The position numbers were made by a program, and so were the translations under genes. Below the pieces are notes generated by a model. The model saw only the letters and a program-made list of their open reading frames with translations. It was not told the origin of the DNA and did not search any database. DNA of 64,000 bases, taken from the NCBI RefSeq assembly GCF_011326755.1, contig NZ_JAAOIE010000003.1:410804-474803 (forward strand). The letters run 5' to 3'. This stretch comes from Cochlodiniinecator piscidefendens. Lineage in GTDB: Bacteria; Pseudomonadota; Alphaproteobacteria; Rhodobacterales; Rhodobacteraceae. Below, in pieces: positions 9,942 through 17,362 of this stretch. Position 1 is the stretch's first letter. Each line of letters starts with the position of its first letter.

Positions 9942-11435
9942 TCAAAACTTGCCTTGCATGATTGCGTCGGACAACAATCGAATATCCGACGAAAGTGGGC
10001 GATCTTCGACCAATGGCATCGACAAATTGCGTATCTGAGACAATGAATTAGAAAGATGTGCGCCCATGGAACTTTGACACGCACGTAACTCAATCGCTTG
10101 AGCTGCTACAATGAATTCAATTGCTGTAAGGTTTGCAGATAAGGAAACCACATTTTCAAGTGCCCGTACCGCTGCAGGTGCAGAGGATAGGCAATCTTCT
10201 ACACCGTTTGCATTTAGACTTGGCCAGATCGAAACTGGCTGTGCGGCATGAAGCAACTCTGCCAATACAGCCTCAGCGGGTTTCATAATGGGTGCAAATC
10301 CATTTGATCCGCTTTCTGGTTTTGCCAAGAATGCAGGCAGGTCGCTAAATACTGGATTTAGTAGCTTCGAGATGCGGGCAATTTGTGCCATCGAAAGGTG
10401 AACGAATGCGCGGCTTACGCATTCGATTGCATTGGTCAATTCGGAAGTGAAATAACCTCCGCAAGAGATAATCTCATTGGTTTCTATTAAAGCGACAGGG
10501 TTGTCACTTGCCCCGTTTACTTCACACAACGCGGTAGTTTCTGCCATCTCCATGGCGGCGAACATCGTGCCATGAATTTGCGCGATGTTGCGTATTGAAA
10601 GAGGATCCTGCAAACGACGGGCTTGGCCATTGTTGAATAATTCTGAACCCTCTAGAATTTTTCGCAAACCCTGCGCTGCCTTTTGTTGACCCGGCAAAGG
10701 CTTGGCCTCTAGTGCTTTTTCACTAAACGGGCCTAAGTTTGCTCGAAAGCCCTCAATCGAAAGGGCCGCCGAGGTCTGTGCCGCTTCCAGTGCAAGACGG
10801 GCATTTGTAAGTGTAATCGCGGCGGCCCCAGCGACTGCGCTGGTGTTGTTGGCTATGGCCAACCCATCGCGGGGCGCTAATTGAAGAGGGGTGATCCCGT
10901 GATCACGCATTAAATCTCCACTGGCGCAGATATCCCCGACAGGCGATATCATTTCACCCTCACCGACCAGGGCTAATCCCAACATTGCATTCAAGGTCAG
11001 GTCCCCAGCCCCGATGGATCCGATTTCCCCTACAACAGGGGTTAAATTTGCGTTTAAACAATCTGCAAAATGAAGAGCCACCTCAGGCCGCGCCCCACTG
11101 TATCCGCTTAGCATTGAATTCAGTCTGACAATCATCGCTGCACGGACGTTTTCGCGGCTGCTGTTCTTGCCAATTGAATGGGCACGACCCCTTAACGTTT
11201 GCAAAGAAAATTTCTTCAATGTTTCCGCGTCTAAAGCTTCATTCGCGCGCGCCCCTAGGCCTGTGGTAACTCCATACACAGGAATGGAATTTTCAATCAC
11301 ATGATCCACCAAAGCCCGAGATTTTTCCATGCGAGTTAAGCCATTTGGACACAAAAGCACTTCACCTTGCCCCTTTGCAACGCGGGCTACATCACTCAGG
11401 CTTATCGATGTACCGGTCAATTTAATCGAAGTCAT
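9942..11435 (-). CDS. Aromatic amino acid lyase (HAL/PAL) family protein lacking the MIO serine
   Basis: A 497-residue homologue of histidine/phenylalanine ammonia-lyase. Conserved features are YGVTTGLG with Y54, LRGRAHSIG with the histidine, ANNTSA, QDPLSIRN, NGASDNP, GGYFTSE and a GVEDCLSSAP segment. The motif that normally gives the MIO electrophile, GS[IV]GASGDL, here reads GSIGAGDL (G139-L146), so the serine of Ala-Ser-Gly is deleted. The nucleotides at 11004-11009 read GCTGGG on the coding strand. Without that serine the classical MIO cannot form. The start directly follows the stop of the OCD-like gene (TAAATG). Ammonia-lyase activity should not be assumed. Confidence 0.8.
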   Translation of the reverse strand: MTSIKLTGTSISLSDVARVAKGQGEVLLCPNGLTRMEKSRALVDHVIENSIPVYGVTTGLGARANEALDAETLKKFSLQTLRGRAHSIGKNSSRENVRAAMIVRLNSMLSGYSGARPEVALHFADCLNANLTPVVGEIGSIGAGDLTLNAMLGLALVGEGEMISPVGDICASGDLMRDHGITPLQLAPRDGLAIANNTSAVAGAAAITLTNARLALEAAQTSAALSIEGFRANLGPFSEKALEAKPLPGQQKAAQGLRKILEGSELFNNGQARRLQDPLSIRNIAQIHGTMFAAMEMAETTALCEVNGASDNPVALIETNEIISCGGYFTSELTNAIECVSRAFVHLSMAQIARISKLLNPVFSDLPAFLAKPESGSNGFAPIMKPAEAVLAELLHAAQPVSIWPSLNANGVEDCLSSAPAAVRALENVVSLSANLTAIEFIVAAQAIELRACQSSMGAHLSNSLSQIRNLSMPLVEDRPLSSDIRLLSDAIMQGKF

Positions 11436-12443
11436 TTATTCGTCCCGATAAACAAGGCTTTGGATAATTTTCATGTCTCGTGCTTTCTCAAGAATCGCTG
11501 CCCCTAATGCGATGTCACCGGTGGACATACCGCGATGCCAAAATAAAATAGTTTCATCGTCAGATTCACGGCCAGGTTTTAACCCTGCAGCAATTTCCCC
11601 AATTTCCGCGTAAAAACTATCTTCGCTGATAAGACCTGCATCAATATGAGGGCGAAGCGCACCAAGGTGACCTGCACGCATTTGACCCAAGTCATCCATA
11701 ACAAATTTGTCAATTCCTTCAACAAAATTGAGGGGCAATGTACTCATGGTACCGTAGGGGATCACCAGTGCCCCCTTTTTCACCCAAGATCGCTCAAACA
11801 TCGGAGTTGGTTCTGTCAGGCGCGTAGCCTCGATCATGATGTCAGCACCGGATAGGCAGCTTTCCCAATCTTCAGTCACGATAACAGGTTTTCCCAAATC
11901 TTGGCTTAACTTTTCGCCGAAAGCGTCGCGACTTTCAGGTCGGCGCGAATGGACGCGGATCTCTTCGAAATCGAACAAATGATCTAACAGCCGTACATTC
12001 CAGTATGAAGTTCCGCGCGCACCAAGATGGCCTAGGATTTTCGGATTTTTCGGCCCCAACCATTTCGCTCCAAGTGCCGTTAAAGCACCTGTGCGCATAT
12101 CAGTGATACCGGCTGCATCTATTACGGCTTTGGGTGCTCCGGTACGAGGGCAAAACAAATTCAGCAGGGCTAATTCAGATGGTAAACCTTGTTTATAGTT
12201 TTCGAAGTAATCTCCTACGATTTTTACACCCGCATAGCCCAGCGGTTCGACGTATCCTCGCAATACATTAAAATGACCATTGAATGATGGATCAGGGGTT
12301 AGATGCATTCGAGGTTCGATAACCGTCTTACCCTGACCAGCAGCGACAAGCCCTGTTTCGATGGCATTCAAAATTTCATCGTTTGTGAGGTTGAGTTGAT
12401 CGATTTCTGGTTTACCTAGATATTCAATTTCCATACGCGACAT
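11436..12443 (-). CDS. Ornithine cyclodeaminase / mu-crystallin family protein
   Basis: A 335-residue member of the OCD/mu-crystallin family. Members include ornithine cyclodeaminase, alanine dehydrogenase and ketimine (pyrroline/piperideine carboxylate) reductases. Family landmarks are EPRMHL, GVKIVGDYFEN with K74, and the ITDMRTGALTALGA helix. Two motifs deviate by eye. The nucleotide loop is GARGTSYWN (141-149) rather than G-x-G-x-Q-A, and the usual GAD catalytic segment reads YGTMS (230-234). It is co-transcribed with the lyase-like gene and divergent from a GcvA-like regulator. The reaction is not predictable, and it may act on the same substrate as the lyase. Confidence 0.8.
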   Translation of the reverse strand: MSRMEIEYLGKPEIDQLNLTNDEILNAIETGLVAAGQGKTVIEPRMHLTPDPSFNGHFNVLRGYVEPLGYAGVKIVGDYFENYKQGLPSELALLNLFCPRTGAPKAVIDAAGITDMRTGALTALGAKWLGPKNPKILGHLGARGTSYWNVRLLDHLFDFEEIRVHSRRPESRDAFGEKLSQDLGKPVIVTEDWESCLSGADIMIEATRLTEPTPMFERSWVKKGALVIPYGTMSTLPLNFVEGIDKFVMDDLGQMRAGHLGALRPHIDAGLISEDSFYAEIGEIAAGLKPGRESDDETILFWHRGMSTGDIALGAAILEKARDMKIIQSLVYRDE

Positions 12444-12555
12444 AGCCTGACCTTCCCGATTTGATTTAGATTTATAGAGGGCAATTGTGAGGGAATATTC
12501 AAATCAGCAATTCTACCTCTTGCACTACAATAACTAATGCTAGAAATTCATTTTC

Positions 12556-13491
12556 ATGAAACTACCGCCCCTCAATGCGCTAAAAGCGTTCGAAGCAACT
12601 GTGAGGCATGGCAGCTTTACCGCCGCCGCTGTTGAGCTGGGGGTGTCAGCTGCAGCAGTCAGTATGCAGATAAAAAGGTTGGAAGAGTTTCTTGGTAAGG
12701 CGCTGTTTTTTAGGAAAAATAATAGTATAGTTTTGACCGACTCTGGCCATTTACTATTTCCGCAGACCACCCAGTCTTTGTCTGACATATCGCTACTCAC
12801 CGAAAGATTCATGGATAATGACATTCGGTCTCGGTTGGTTGTTAGCACAATCCAATCTTTGGCAGAGAGGTGTGCGGCACCTGCAGTTGCAGCCATGAGA
12901 ATTAAGCATCCTAACTTAGGCATAGAAGTACAAATTGAATCTGATCCCGTTGATTTAGTGAAGCAACGAATTGATTTACGCCTAACCTATGGCGACCAGC
13001 ATTACGCGGAGATTCCTAAAACTGAATTGTTTCACGAAGATGCAATTCCTATGTGTTCTCCAAATTTAGCATTGCAACTTGACCTTGATCCCACACTTTC
13101 TCACATACCTGATGAGCAGTTGATTCATGTTAACTGGGGCCAAGACTATATGTCTTACCCAACATGGGGGCTGTGGTTTGCATCTCAGGGAATTGATCGT
13201 CAACCCGACGTAACCAAAGGATTGCGCGCTGCAGGATCTGCCGTCGCCGTAGCTATGGCTTGTGCTCATGCGGGGGTCGTTTTGGCGCCGCGCCGTCTTG
13301 CCGGATATGAACATCGAGTGGATAGCTTAAAAATTATATCAAATCATATGATAAAGTTATCTCAGCCTTATTTCGGAATCGGTCCGAAGGTAATTTCTGA
13401 CGATAATGCTGTGCTTGGAAAATACAAAACCTACTTACGCGATTTGGTAGAGCTTTTGAAAACGCACCCAGTTGAAATGCCTGCTCCTTAG
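12556..13491 (+). CDS. LysR-type regulator, GcvA-like
   Basis: A 311-residue LysR regulator. Residues 1-60 form the winged helix (LNALKAFEATVRHGSFTAAA, then VSAAAVSMQIKRLEE), the GcvA-subgroup pattern. The ligand domain follows, with LEVQ/DPVDL-like segments (IESDPVDLVKQRIDLRL). It is transcribed divergently from the OCD-lyase pair, with 112 bases between. A CTAAT pentamer, the core of GcvA boxes, lies close to its start at about 12534. It most likely controls the divergent pair. It ends at a hairpin shared with the convergent solute-binding protein gene. Confidence 0.9.
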   Translation: MKLPPLNALKAFEATVRHGSFTAAAVELGVSAAAVSMQIKRLEEFLGKALFFRKNNSIVLTDSGHLLFPQTTQSLSDISLLTERFMDNDIRSRLVVSTIQSLAERCAAPAVAAMRIKHPNLGIEVQIESDPVDLVKQRIDLRLTYGDQHYAEIPKTELFHEDAIPMCSPNLALQLDLDPTLSHIPDEQLIHVNWGQDYMSYPTWGLWFASQGIDRQPDVTKGLRAAGSAVAVAMACAHAGVVLAPRRLAGYEHRVDSLKIISNHMIKLSQPYFGIGPKVISDDNAVLGKYKTYLRDLVELLKTHPVEMPAP

Positions 13492-13503
13492 CAAAGAGCA
13501 GGC
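13479..13503. terminator. Terminator-like hairpin between convergent genes
   Basis: Perfect 8-bp arms GCCTGCTC (13479-13486) and GAGCAGGC (13496-13503) with a 9-base loop span the stop codon of the regulator gene. A short TTTT run follows at 13509. It probably serves both convergent genes. Confidence 0.65.
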
Positions 13504-13510
13504 ACGGGTT

Positions 13511-15187
13511 TTAACCGTCGATCCATACATCGTTTAGATGCAGTTCAATGGCTTGGTGGGCGTTATAATTCTGGATGTTAGCCCGCTTGTGCCAGACAAT
13601 GTTACGCCAGAATGGTTGAATGATCACGCCACTATCTCGCAACATTGTTGCCATGTCTGTCATGATGATGCGACGGGCATCAGTATCAAATGTTGCGAGT
13701 GCTTCATCTAATTTTGCATCAAATTCAGGGTTGGCGTGACCAGTTTCGTTCCAGGCGACATCACTCCGATAGGCCAGAGAATAGATTTGTACGCCAAGTG
13801 GGCGTGCACCCCAACTGGTTGTAGAAAACGCATAGCTGGTCCAGCCGTTCCAAAATGTGCTGCCTGGCATCAACGTACGGGTCACGTTAAAACCAGCATC
13901 TCTGATTTGCGCGGCAGCAGCATCAGCTGTCCAACGCAACCAATCTTCATCCAGAGAAATGATTTCAATTTCTGTTTCCAATTGACCCGCTTCGGCCATC
14001 AATGTTTGAGCTTTCTCAATATTTCGTTCTTGCACCGGTAGCACTGGGTATTCAGGGTGCATTGGCCCAACATGAAAATTGTCGCCAAGCTGACCATTAC
14101 CACCAAATCCAAGTTCAAGCAGTACCGCATTGTCCACACTGGCTTGCATCGCTTGACGTACTCGTTGGTCAGTAAATGGAGGTTGATTTACATTCATACG
14201 CAACACGACCGTGCTAGCAGTCACTTGATGGGAAGGCACCAAACCTATGTTTTCTGCAACTTCTGCAAACTCGGCATTGGTGCCAATGTTGACATCAATT
14301 TCATCAGCATCAAAAGCAGCAATCATTGCGGATGGATCTGTTCCATAGTCCAGCATTTCAATGCCATCAAGGTGGGCTTCTCCGCCCCACCAGGTTCCGC
14401 TTTCACGTCGTTTGTAGACAGCTTTTTCGCCAATAGTATACGACACCAGCTCGAACGCGCCGGTCCCAATCGGAGCATCGACAATAGATCCAACTGCGGC
14501 GCTGTCAGGGTGAGAAAGGAGCGCGGTATAGTCGGCAAAAGTCGCAATTAATGTAATATCTGCAGCATTGAGATGTAAGCGAACAGTATGATCGTCAACT
14601 TTTTCAATGGCTCCAACCCGTGCTTTGCCGCTTTCTGGATCAACCAAAGCTCCCAAGCGGGTGGCCATGGCATTACCTTCGACAGTGGAATCACACCAGC
14701 GTTCGACATTATAAACAACATGATCAGATGTGAATGCGTCGCCATTTGTCCAAGTTACTCCCGGACGCAGATTCAACGTATAAGTTTTTGTATCGTCGCT
14801 GACCTGCCAACTCTCCAGCAATATCCCAGAAAAGGTAAAGTCATGGTTCCAAGAAACCAAACCTTCCAGAAACTGTCGGGCGCTATTCCCTTTCTCTGGC
14901 CAATCAAACTTCCGTGGGTCGGCGATGTCCATCACGCTCATAGCGACGCGCAGAACTCCTCCTTTTGAAGGCGTATCTGCTTGTGCCGTACTCGGAACAC
15001 TTAAGCCAAGCATCCCATACGCAATAGCGGATGATGCGCCCAACGTGCTTGCTAAAGCGAGGAATTCACGTCGGGCGAGAGTTCCTTTCTTCGCGTCATT
15101 AGCGAGCGCTTCAATATTTGGATGTAGTGCGTTTCGGTCTTTTATAATCGGTTTCATGCGTTTTCCATTCCCTTGTTGAGTAGACAT
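13511..15187 (-). CDS. ABC transporter solute-binding protein (SBP_bac_5, peptide type)
   Basis: A 558-residue family-5 solute-binding protein of the DppA/OppA kind. An N-terminal twin-arginine signal is visible: ARREFLALAS with R39-R40, a hydrophobic stretch and a probable cleavage after AQA at 68-70. Typical folds follow, including SWQVSDDTKTYTLNLRPGV and HLNAAD. The start at 15187 is chosen for AGGCGG five bases upstream; an ATG ten codons later also has a fair site. No permease or ATPase gene is adjacent, so it is an orphan here and probably borrows membrane components encoded elsewhere. It probably delivers the substrate of the neighbouring lyase/OCD/desaturase genes. Confidence 0.88.
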   Translation of the reverse strand: MSTQQGNGKRMKPIIKDRNALHPNIEALANDAKKGTLARREFLALASTLGASSAIAYGMLGLSVPSTAQADTPSKGGVLRVAMSVMDIADPRKFDWPEKGNSARQFLEGLVSWNHDFTFSGILLESWQVSDDTKTYTLNLRPGVTWTNGDAFTSDHVVYNVERWCDSTVEGNAMATRLGALVDPESGKARVGAIEKVDDHTVRLHLNAADITLIATFADYTALLSHPDSAAVGSIVDAPIGTGAFELVSYTIGEKAVYKRRESGTWWGGEAHLDGIEMLDYGTDPSAMIAAFDADEIDVNIGTNAEFAEVAENIGLVPSHQVTASTVVLRMNVNQPPFTDQRVRQAMQASVDNAVLLELGFGGNGQLGDNFHVGPMHPEYPVLPVQERNIEKAQTLMAEAGQLETEIEIISLDEDWLRWTADAAAAQIRDAGFNVTRTLMPGSTFWNGWTSYAFSTTSWGARPLGVQIYSLAYRSDVAWNETGHANPEFDAKLDEALATFDTDARRIIMTDMATMLRDSGVIIQPFWRNIVWHKRANIQNYNAHQAIELHLNDVWIDG

Positions 15188-15306
15188 GAGTTCCGCCTCT
15201 TGTTGTCGATGTTCCATCTGTATGATGATGTCAGGTGCTGGGCGGATTTCAAAAAATGTGCAGGTGTTAACGAAATTGCACAAACCACTAAAAATGAACC
15301 TTCTTT

Positions 15307-15343
15307 AAGAAATTCTTAGTCTGTCATTCGAAGAAGAATTCTT
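15307..15343. promoter_or_regulatory. Paired palindromes upstream of the solute-binding protein gene
   Basis: AAGAAATTCTT (15307-15317) and the perfect palindrome AAGAATTCTT (15334-15343) are 27 bases apart and lie about 120-156 bases upstream of the solute-binding protein start. They could be a regulator's paired half-sites; the call rests on symmetry only. The rest of the 280-base gap shows no gene. Confidence 0.3.
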
Positions 15344-15467
15344 TGTCCACCTGTACCTGCAACTTTGTAGTCGCTCATAGAAATTCAGAGGCCTTTTGGG
15401 GTGAAGCTAAATGTTGGAGGGTCTCGAGCAATTTACGCTGTCTCGGATCGACCAAGATGCAAAGTGC

Positions 15468-16361
15468 TTATTCGAGCACTTCATTTATGTAGGCTTTGTT
15501 AAAAGCTGTGTATCCTTCGGTTGTTACCAACAGATGTGGTTGAATAAGGTGATGCAAATCCGGGAGCTTATGAAAGGGCACAGATGGGTAGCTGTGGTGT
15601 TCAGTATGGTAGGGCATATTCCAAGCGATCGCGCGCACCAGAGAGTTGGTAAATGTTGTGCGTGTGTTTTCGAACATGTTTGCAACTGCAGGGCAGCGCC
15701 CATGCTCAGCTAGCAGATATAGGCGAAGAAAAGGTTGCCCCAATAACATGGGAAACAGCCAAACTTCGAGCAAAATAAAGCTTCCGGACCAGAAGCTTGC
15801 CCCTAACAATGTCACGTATCCTGCGAGATAAAGGATCGCTTCACGTTTGATTTGGGATTGGCGCGCTTCCGGAACAAATTCTTGAAATCTGTTGCCCATA
15901 GCATTCGATGCAAGTGTTTTTGCGTGGCTAATCCAGACCGGAATACCTGAAACATGAATAATGTACTGCACCCAAGTTGTTGGCTTAGGTGTATCTAATT
16001 CGGGGTCTTTGCCCGGAATTTGGGTAAAACGATGGTGGGCGAAGTGGAAGTAACGGAACCATGTTGCTGGTAAGAATAACGCGAAACCACAAACATGCCC
16101 GACCACCTCGTTGATCCACGCGCTCTTAAAGGGGGTTTTGTGGCTTGTCTCGTGCAGTAGCGTGAATAAAAATACGATTAGGACACCTAGAAAAACTGAT
16201 GCAACCTGCCATCCAAGGGCATTGGAATAAACCCAAATACTAAAAAGAATAATCGAGCCCCAATGAAATGCCAGATGCATCAAACCCTTTGTGTTGCTCC
16301 GAAGTGTAAGATTTTGGCGCTGTTCCGCCCCGAGTGAAGAAAGAAACGCTTTGTGATCCAT
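15468..16361 (-). CDS. Membrane di-iron fatty acid desaturase/hydroxylase family protein
   Basis: A 297-residue integral membrane oxygenase with all histidine boxes: HETSH (70-74), HFAHH (106-110) and HTEHH (252-256), plus H220. About four hydrophobic segments flank them. The start is the ATG after GGAGG seven bases upstream; an ATG eight codons earlier lacks a good site. The family includes lipid desaturases but also hydroxylases, ketolases and monooxygenases of small molecules. Its neighbours are an orphan binding protein and a dedicated divergent LysR gene, not lipid genes, so a small-molecule oxidation role is plausible but inferred. Confidence 0.85.
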   Translation of the reverse strand: MDHKAFLSSLGAEQRQNLTLRSNTKGLMHLAFHWGSIILFSIWVYSNALGWQVASVFLGVLIVFLFTLLHETSHKTPFKSAWINEVVGHVCGFALFLPATWFRYFHFAHHRFTQIPGKDPELDTPKPTTWVQYIIHVSGIPVWISHAKTLASNAMGNRFQEFVPEARQSQIKREAILYLAGYVTLLGASFWSGSFILLEVWLFPMLLGQPFLRLYLLAEHGRCPAVANMFENTRTTFTNSLVRAIAWNMPYHTEHHSYPSVPFHKLPDLHHLIQPHLLVTTEGYTAFNKAYINEVLE

Positions 16362-16453
16362 TGGAAACCCTCCTTCATATTTCATATTGGCAAAAATTTC
16401 ATTTCAATAGAGAGAATAATTGATCTATTGATTAGTATATCTTACCTATTGGT

Positions 16454-17362
16454 ATGGCAGGTTCTTTCTCTCTCCGTGCGCTGGAAGCATTTGAAGTCGC
16501 AGCAAGGCGAGGCAGTTTTGTTTTAGCTGCCGAAGAATTGGGAATTTCACCATCAGCGGTTAGCCAATTAATCCGAATGTTGGAAGAACAGAGTGGCCGC
16601 CGACTTTTTGAACGCGTGAAACGTGGAATTCAATTGAGTGAAGCAGGCCGCGACGCGTTCCCTCGACTACAAGCTGCATTTTACGACATACGTGAAACAA
16701 GCGAAGAACTGCGCCGTTCTGTAGGCCCATCTAGGCTGGTGATTTCAGTGCCCCCGTCCATTGCTTCGGTTTGGTTGCCAAAAAAATTGGGCGAATTTGT
16801 TGAACAATACCCAAATGTTGGATTGCGGATACGTGAGGATCACGATCCTGTGGACCTTGAGGAACAGCGCATTGATATTAGACTTTCATATGGTCCGTTT
16901 CCACAGCCTGCAGCCAAAATTGTGGCTAACCTACAGGATCACTGCGTTGCTGTGTGTGCCCCAAGTTATTTAGATAATTTTGTGGGAACAAAACATTTAA
17001 AGCACGATACTGATTGTCGCCTGATTACAACTGACTGGGGGGGCGATGCAGCACGTTTTCCAACGTGGTCGGATTTTTTTGGGCAAGAACATACCAACGT
17101 TGGGCACACCGTTTCCTCGTCGCAATCCGCAGTCTCATTGGCTCGATGTGGAATGGGCATTGCATTAGTTCAGGTACTATTTGTATCGCAATATTTACGT
17201 GAAAATCATTTGATCCTTGCTGATCAAAAGAAGCTGACAATGGATCAACCGTACTGTTTGTCGATACGGAATGTTAGCCTTCAACGCCCAATTGTGAAAC
17301 AGTTCGCCCGACACTTCGAGGCGATAATTAATAAGGCAGTTGCATCCCCAATACCCATGTAA
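16454..17362 (+). CDS. LysR-type regulator, GcvA-like (second copy)
   Basis: A 302-residue LysR regulator related to the one at 12556. The winged helix contains LRALEAFEVAARRGSFVLAA and ISPSAVSQLIRMLEE. The effector domain has EDHDPVDLEEQRIDIRLSYG, parallel to IESDPVDLVKQRIDLRL of the other copy. It is divergent from the desaturase gene with a 92-base gap that includes a GATTAG/CTAAT-like core near 16430. The likely target is the desaturase gene. Two related regulators, each divergent from one catabolic unit, suggest that the island was assembled from two modules or arose by duplication. Confidence 0.9.
   Translation: MAGSFSLRALEAFEVAARRGSFVLAAEELGISPSAVSQLIRMLEEQSGRRLFERVKRGIQLSEAGRDAFPRLQAAFYDIRETSEELRRSVGPSRLVISVPPSIASVWLPKKLGEFVEQYPNVGLRIREDHDPVDLEEQRIDIRLSYGPFPQPAAKIVANLQDHCVAVCAPSYLDNFVGTKHLKHDTDCRLITTDWGGDAARFPTWSDFFGQEHTNVGHTVSSSQSAVSLARCGMGIALVQVLFVSQYLRENHLILADQKKLTMDQPYCLSIRNVSLQRPIVKQFARHFEAIINKAVASPIPM

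Follow-up and report, generated by a model that had tools for sequence, protein, structure and literature searches.

A predicted MIO-free lyase of the histidine ammonia-lyase fold and its conserved ornithine cyclodeaminase-family partner in Cochlodiniinecator piscidefendens

The window, a stretch of 64,000 nucleotides from the marine-type alphaproteobacterium Cochlodiniinecator piscidefendens, encodes a lyase of the HAL/PAL family (PF00221) in which the MIO motif is one residue short. The MIO is made from Ala-Ser-Gly and is the accepted hallmark of the HAL superfamily, with ergothionase as the exception. Judged from its sequence, the window lyase belongs to a large MIO-free branch and is no orphan, as a precedent for it is known. 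By analogy with ergothionase, it would on balance be an MIO-independent lyase that converts a histidine-derived betaine (hercynine or ergothioneine type) to trimethylamine and a urocanate-type acrylate. The gene and the residues discussed below are the following.

9942..11435, minus strand: MIO-free lyase of the HAL/PAL family (PF00221, 3e-115), an open reading frame of 497 aa with ergothionase 6s7j as top PDB match
10998..11021, minus strand: GSIGA-GDL motif, residues 139-146; the HAL MIO motif GSVGASGDL is one residue longer
11274..11276, minus strand: Tyr54, counterpart of the catalytic Tyr53 in HAL and ergothionase, invariant in 37 sequences
11184..11186, minus strand: Arg84, a His in HAL and in T. 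denticola ergothionase; Arg in all scored members linked to an ornithine cyclodeaminase-family (OCD) gene
10281..10283, minus strand: Lys385, also found in ergothionase (K383 of the chain) and not in MIO-bearing HALs, at least 90% conserved
10197..10199, minus strand: Glu413, counterpart of HAL Glu414 and ergothionase Glu411, invariant in 37 sequences and Gln in tyrosine aminomutase

The reading frame starts with ATG, contains zero internal stops and gives one full-length match to PF00221. The original prediction had read the Ala-Ser-Gly as reduced to Ala-Gly within GSIGAGDL (codons 11004-11009), and re-reading gave an exact match: the codon of Ala143 occupies 11009-11007 and that of Gly144 11006-11004. 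The genome's own HutH, encoded in the hut (histidine utilisation) operon, carries GSVGASGDL. Alignment of the two proteins requires one single-residue gap, precisely at the MIO motif and with none nearby, so that the flanks are gap-free as had been claimed. Because Ala-Ser-Gly is cut to Ala-Gly, the MIO cannot be formed in the window lyase. A separate ASGD stretch (residues 171-174) had already been dismissed as an MIO site, and rightly so. It aligns opposite the NAGE of HAL, at a helix N-cap after a beta hairpin, and varies in the orthologs (GPSAEM, GPSEDM or SSSAEL). In the AlphaFold2 model the region reads E169-171 / H172-178, i.e. a helix start behind a beta hairpin. A displaced MIO at A171-S172-G173 was thus rejected, given its wrong position in both alignment and model and its lack of conservation.

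Whether the deletion is shared by homologues, a check proposed with the original prediction, was addressed by a scan of genome contigs. About 85,000 species genomes yielded 80 lyase loci at 33-59% identity. All 80 carry the one-residue deletion in the same register, without the serine-glycine step; a TGLG pattern from the lyase's own clade served as its seed, so this figure covers the clade and not PF00221 overall. The same gap is found in orthologs at 52-58% identity (GSIGAADL, GSVGVADL, GSIGPSDL), both in those from other genomes of the same family (53-57%) and in those on two Rhodobacteraceae plasmids. The gap in the orthologs and in all 80 scan loci shows that it is not a codon missing from one assembly. 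An assembly error, or a decaying HAL gene, is in effect refuted by these orthologs, as the deletion recurs in 80 independent contigs, the reading frame is intact and the genome holds a separate, normal HAL. Proteobacterial-type lyase loci were also found on contigs titled Oceanobacillus (L079), Mycobacterium (L104) and Mesoflavibacter (L086); these assemblies are probably mislabelled or contaminated.

A set of 37 diverse sequences has 25 invariant columns, including Y54, D145, R282 (in QDPLSIRN) and E413 (in GVED), while K385 is at least 90% conserved. The tyrosine, arginine and glutamate that had been named as retained are thus invariant throughout. One could still imagine a paralog without catalytic activity, retained for a structural or regulatory role, since it has lost the MIO residues by which ammonia-lyase activity is defined. 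This is very improbable in view of the invariant Y54, R282 and E413 and the nearly invariant K385, of its conserved pairing with a gene for an enzyme and of the linkage to transporters. Moreover, ergothionase is active without MIO according to PMC13405746, where this is attributed to Maurer 2019. The original prediction had held that a different or cofactor-free chemistry would be needed; its MIO-free reading is supported, but it had overlooked this precedent. With the clade-wide deletion, the retained catalytic positions, the conserved two-gene module and a confident HAL-fold model (pLDDT 93.4), the prediction of a functional MIO-free enzyme rather than a decaying gene is supported.

The relation to ergothionase is seen in both sequence and structure. 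The best PDB sequence match is the Treponema denticola ergothionase 6s7j (5.5e-58), with tyrosine aminomutase and HAL behind. Active sites in the HAL fold are assembled from several subunits, and the AlphaFold2 model obtained here is that of the monomer. It adopts the HAL fold and has ergothionase as its top Foldseek match; in VIA-align, ergothionase is again the best (Z 47.1 over 494 aligned residues, compared to 43-45 for HALs). The structural comparison that had been suggested therefore recovered the HAL fold and did not place A171-S172-G173 as the MIO site. Ergothionase (PDB 6s7j/6s7q) and the window lyase have in common the fold, the absence of MIO and a deletion identical in place (SSIGEGD in ergothionase). 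The positions of Tyr53, Lys383 and Glu411 are retained (Tyr54, Lys385 and Glu413), and both enzymes have the Leu of QDPL where HAL has Tyr280. However, they are only 29% identical, fall into different subclades and differ at the position of HAL His83, where ergothionase has His and the window lyase Arg84.

HutH (TIGR01225) likewise shares the fold, Tyr54, Arg282, Glu413 and QDP with the window lyase, but HAL carries Ala-Ser-Gly, Tyr280 and His83 and is without Lys385. The TIGR01225 score of 319 bits lies below the curated cutoff of 539, and with the MIO motif absent the HutH assignment was rejected. In general, PF00221 and the HAL fold are shared with the MIO-dependent ammonia-lyases and aminomutases (HAL, PAL, TAL), whereas their Ala-Ser-Gly is lacking. 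The same fold is found in the tyrosine aminomutase SgcC4 (PDB 2ohy, 3kdz) and the Rhodobacter TAL (2o6y), both of which contain MIO. The HAL-type Glu413 that the window lyase keeps is replaced by Gln in SgcC4.

In a tree computed without the MIO motif columns, and with the root not fixed, all 68 one-residue-short sequences fall on one side of a branch with an SH-aLRT of 100. On the opposite side are the MIO-bearing HALs, SgcC4 and the GSVGY-LTH paralogs. The MIO-bearing HALs are marked by ASG, QDPY and His84 and lack Lys385; the short sequences are marked by QDPL or a near variant, almost always Lys385, and VED, IED or a near variant. Ergothionase lies within the short group as a long branch, tentatively near Rhizobium members (89), and the window lyase in a subclade apart from it (45 rows, support 99). 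Among 83 scored locus members, residue 84 departs from Arg just three times, twice to His and once to Gln. No OCD gene lies within reach in the two Mesorhizobium loci with His84 or in the related Rhizobiales loci L166-L168 and L170. The substitution of His by Arg84 points to a pocket unlike that of HAL and ergothionase.

The lyase is accompanied by the following genes.

11436..12443, minus strand: ornithine cyclodeaminase/mu-crystallin-family (OCD) oxidoreductase (PF02423), directly upstream of the lyase
12556..13491, plus strand: LysR regulator, divergent from the OCD-lyase pair, with an equivalently placed homolog in L034, L038, L048, L050-L052, L054 and L088
13511..15283, minus strand: SBP_bac_5 solute-binding protein (PF00496), a possible uptake component
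15468..16385, minus strand: membrane diiron enzyme of the FA_desaturase superfamily (PF00487), hydroxylase-like
16454..17362, plus strand: another LysR regulator, which probably controls the diiron gene; in L059 a 41% homolog stands between diiron gene and OCD

The OCD stop abuts the lyase start (TAA|ATG). Of 89 lyase loci, 60 have an OCD gene nearby, in several orientations; many loci end early at a contig edge. In most of the nearest relatives the OCD protein is 84-89% identical, compared to only 53-58% for the lyase. The divergent LysR gene is recurrent in rhodobacterial loci. Homologs of the diiron gene (41-53%) adjoin OCD or the lyase in L059, L066, L070, L081 and L089, and in the Gemmobacter locus L064 the lyase is immediately followed by a 45% homolog of SBP_bac_5. 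As these homologs adjoin the lyase or OCD elsewhere, the module in the window probably spans 9942-17362. The diiron protein itself has weak similarity to the arginine hydroxylase GntB and to DesB. The lyase-OCD pair recalls EutB/EutC of (hydroxy)ectoine metabolism, a lyase/dehydratase with an OCD-family partner. However, EutB belongs to a PLP-type dehydratase family, unlike the HAL-fold lyase of the window, and the window OCD scores 126 bits against the EutC model (cutoff 472).

Some Rhizobium loci are organized differently. An operon in L099, L100, L109, L116, L121 and L123 (about 4-16 kb) contains a CoA transferase, SDR, MaoC, GntR/UTRA, the lyase, an OpuAC solute-binding protein (SBP), OCD, a PhnD-like protein, permeases and an ATPase. 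The CoA transferase and MaoC hydratase suggest that the lyase product is broken down there in a CoA-dependent manner instead of by Hut. When the PhnD-like neighbor was sought in the C. piscidefendens genome, only a 30% partial match elsewhere was found, which places it outside the window module. A Rhizobium plasmid (L036, 3994-10185) combines two LLM flavin oxidoreductases, DUF427, OCD, the MIO-free lyase, DUF1684 and a glycine-betaine-type ABC transporter. This looks like a variant of the pathway in which flavin enzymes replace the diiron enzyme.

Clues to the substrate come from the loci of relatives. The lyase lies within or beside a hut cluster in four separate lineages. In L072, from the window's own 34-row subclade, the lyase, OCD, GntR, HutF, HutI, HutH and HutU follow each other consecutively, and L096 has the order MTTB, lyase, OCD, HutF, HutI, HutG, HutU. 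The loci L094, L095 and L107 contain HutH, HutG or HutF, the lyase and OCD, with HutG abutting the lyase in L094; L119 is also hut-linked. In L165, HutU, a BCCT transporter, HutH, HutI, HutG, the lyase, an OpuAC SBP, OCD and a PhnD-like gene are on one strand. If about 0.5% of loci are expected to have a urocanase within 9 kb, its presence in at least 5 of 89 corresponds to a binomial P of about 1e-4; this is a rough guide only, given that assumed rate and the kinship among the loci. Of the 89 loci, 13 encode an OpuAC SBP, a type whose closest solved relatives are binding proteins for choline-like compounds, nicotine analogues, glycine/proline betaine or ergothioneine (EgtUC). MTTB methyltransferases occur in 8 of 89 loci, two of the eight being one contig. 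The hut linkage, the OpuAC SBPs and MTTB together suggest a quaternary-ammonium derivative of histidine as substrate. The window's own cluster is neither hut-linked nor equipped with an OpuAC-type transporter. The 3.7-Mb genome does contain a hut operon, exactly one urocanase (on the hut contig) and 15 MTTB (PF06253) genes on contigs C1, C5, C12, C15, C16, C18 and C21, and no EgtD-type methyltransferase was found in it. This inventory fits the uptake and use of such a betaine rather than its synthesis.

For the conversion of a histidine betaine we infer the leaving group, the substrate, the order of steps and the roles of OCD and the diiron enzyme as follows. The substrate would be hercynine, ergothioneine or an oxidized form, taken up from outside. 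Arg282 would bind its carboxylate, and Glu413 and Lys385 would hold and polarize the imidazole-type side chain. Tyr54 would then take the beta proton, and trimethylamine would depart from the alpha carbon. Since trimethylamine is a good leaving group as it stands and needs no prior activation, the MIO electrophile would be dispensable. The urocanate-type acrylate would end in the hut pathway. The lyase, OCD, diiron enzyme and SBP would form one catabolic module. OCD may reduce the ring (e.g. removing the sulfur of a thio-imidazole reductively) or take a demethylated amine as its substrate, and the diiron enzyme may hydroxylate or oxidize the substrate beforehand. Counting against this reading, a plain trimethylamine lyase leaves the conserved OCD and the diiron enzyme without an obvious job. 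Further points against it are the different pocket indicated by Arg84, the lack of hut linkage and of an OpuAC-type transporter in the window's own cluster, and the CoA-related genes of the Rhizobium clusters.

A true ergothionase would be a special case of this reading. Ergothioneine would be converted to thiourocanate and trimethylamine, after which OCD or another neighbor removes the sulfur, and the protein would be an ordinary member of a known family. Ergothionase is indeed the nearest solved structure and has the deletion, Lys and Glu in common, and relatives of the lyase are linked to OpuAC SBPs resembling EgtUC. Nevertheless, we consider it unlikely given the low identity, the other subclade and the Arg84. 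The single urocanase on the hut contig also means that there is no separate thiourocanate hydratase of the urocanase family; none was found beside HutU in the genome, although such an enzyme is not strictly required of an ergothionase. The separate subclade, Arg84 and the lack of a second urocanase led to the rejection of an outright ergothionase assignment.

A candidate for such a two-enzyme pair was seen in the actinomycete locus L110 (2468-4093 and 5473-6939). There, an MIO-less lyase with GSVGQGDL adjoins an oppositely oriented urocanase-family gene that is 46% identical to HutU, making the two a candidate ergothionase/thiourocanate hydratase pair.

The substrate might also not derive from histidine at all, which we regard as somewhat doubtful. 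Another betaine, a sulfonium compound or an acid pre-hydroxylated by the diiron enzyme would be converted by the lyase to an acrylate or enamine, and OCD would reduce the imine, as is thought for EutB/EutC. This would give the conserved OCD partner and the linked, weakly GntB-like diiron enzyme a place; Arg84 could bind an anionic side chain, and the CoA-transferase/MaoC genes of the Rhizobium clusters are in line with it. Against it speak the hut linkage, which recurs in separate lineages and extends to a member of the window's subclade, and the retained HAL-type Glu413.

Two further types of MIO-less protein were encountered. The C. piscidefendens genome encodes a third PF00221 protein (L003, 1369-2901; G000:C17) with GSVGASDL, one residue short with the Ser present. 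It has His at the Lys385 position of the MIO-free clade, groups with the actinomycete protein of L110 and is possibly another MIO-free lyase. In other Pseudomonadota, HutH-like paralogs with GSVGY---LTH (L143-L145, L147-L149, L151, L152, L154, L156) lack three residues of the MIO motif and have QDALS and ANPHG. In L171 and L172 they are found within or close to hut clusters containing another HutH-like gene. On sequence grounds, these paralogs are predicted to be a separate MIO-less branch beside HAL.

Returning to the histidine betaine lyase, we tentatively propose a second MIO-independent activity in the HAL superfamily. It would belong to a large, mostly proteobacterial clade that is marked by Arg84, coupled to OCD and sometimes hut-linked. 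These enzymes may release trimethylamine from hercynine or another histidine betaine that is not ergothioneine, or may with OCD and the diiron enzyme convert ergothioneine to urocanate, an undescribed route from trimethylated histidines to Hut. The pathway around the window lyase is apparently undescribed: a literature search with thin coverage of subscription papers returned nothing relevant on a hercynine-to-urocanate route or a lyase-OCD operon. On the present data, the MIO-free exception is an entire branch, whose conserved gene neighborhood predicts a testable betaine catabolic pathway. Its members are usually annotated as hutH or as aromatic amino acid lyase, and calling them histidine ammonia-lyase is very probably a misannotation. 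If the proposed reading is true, the enzymes of this branch would release trimethylamine in soil and sea without being listed among its sources.
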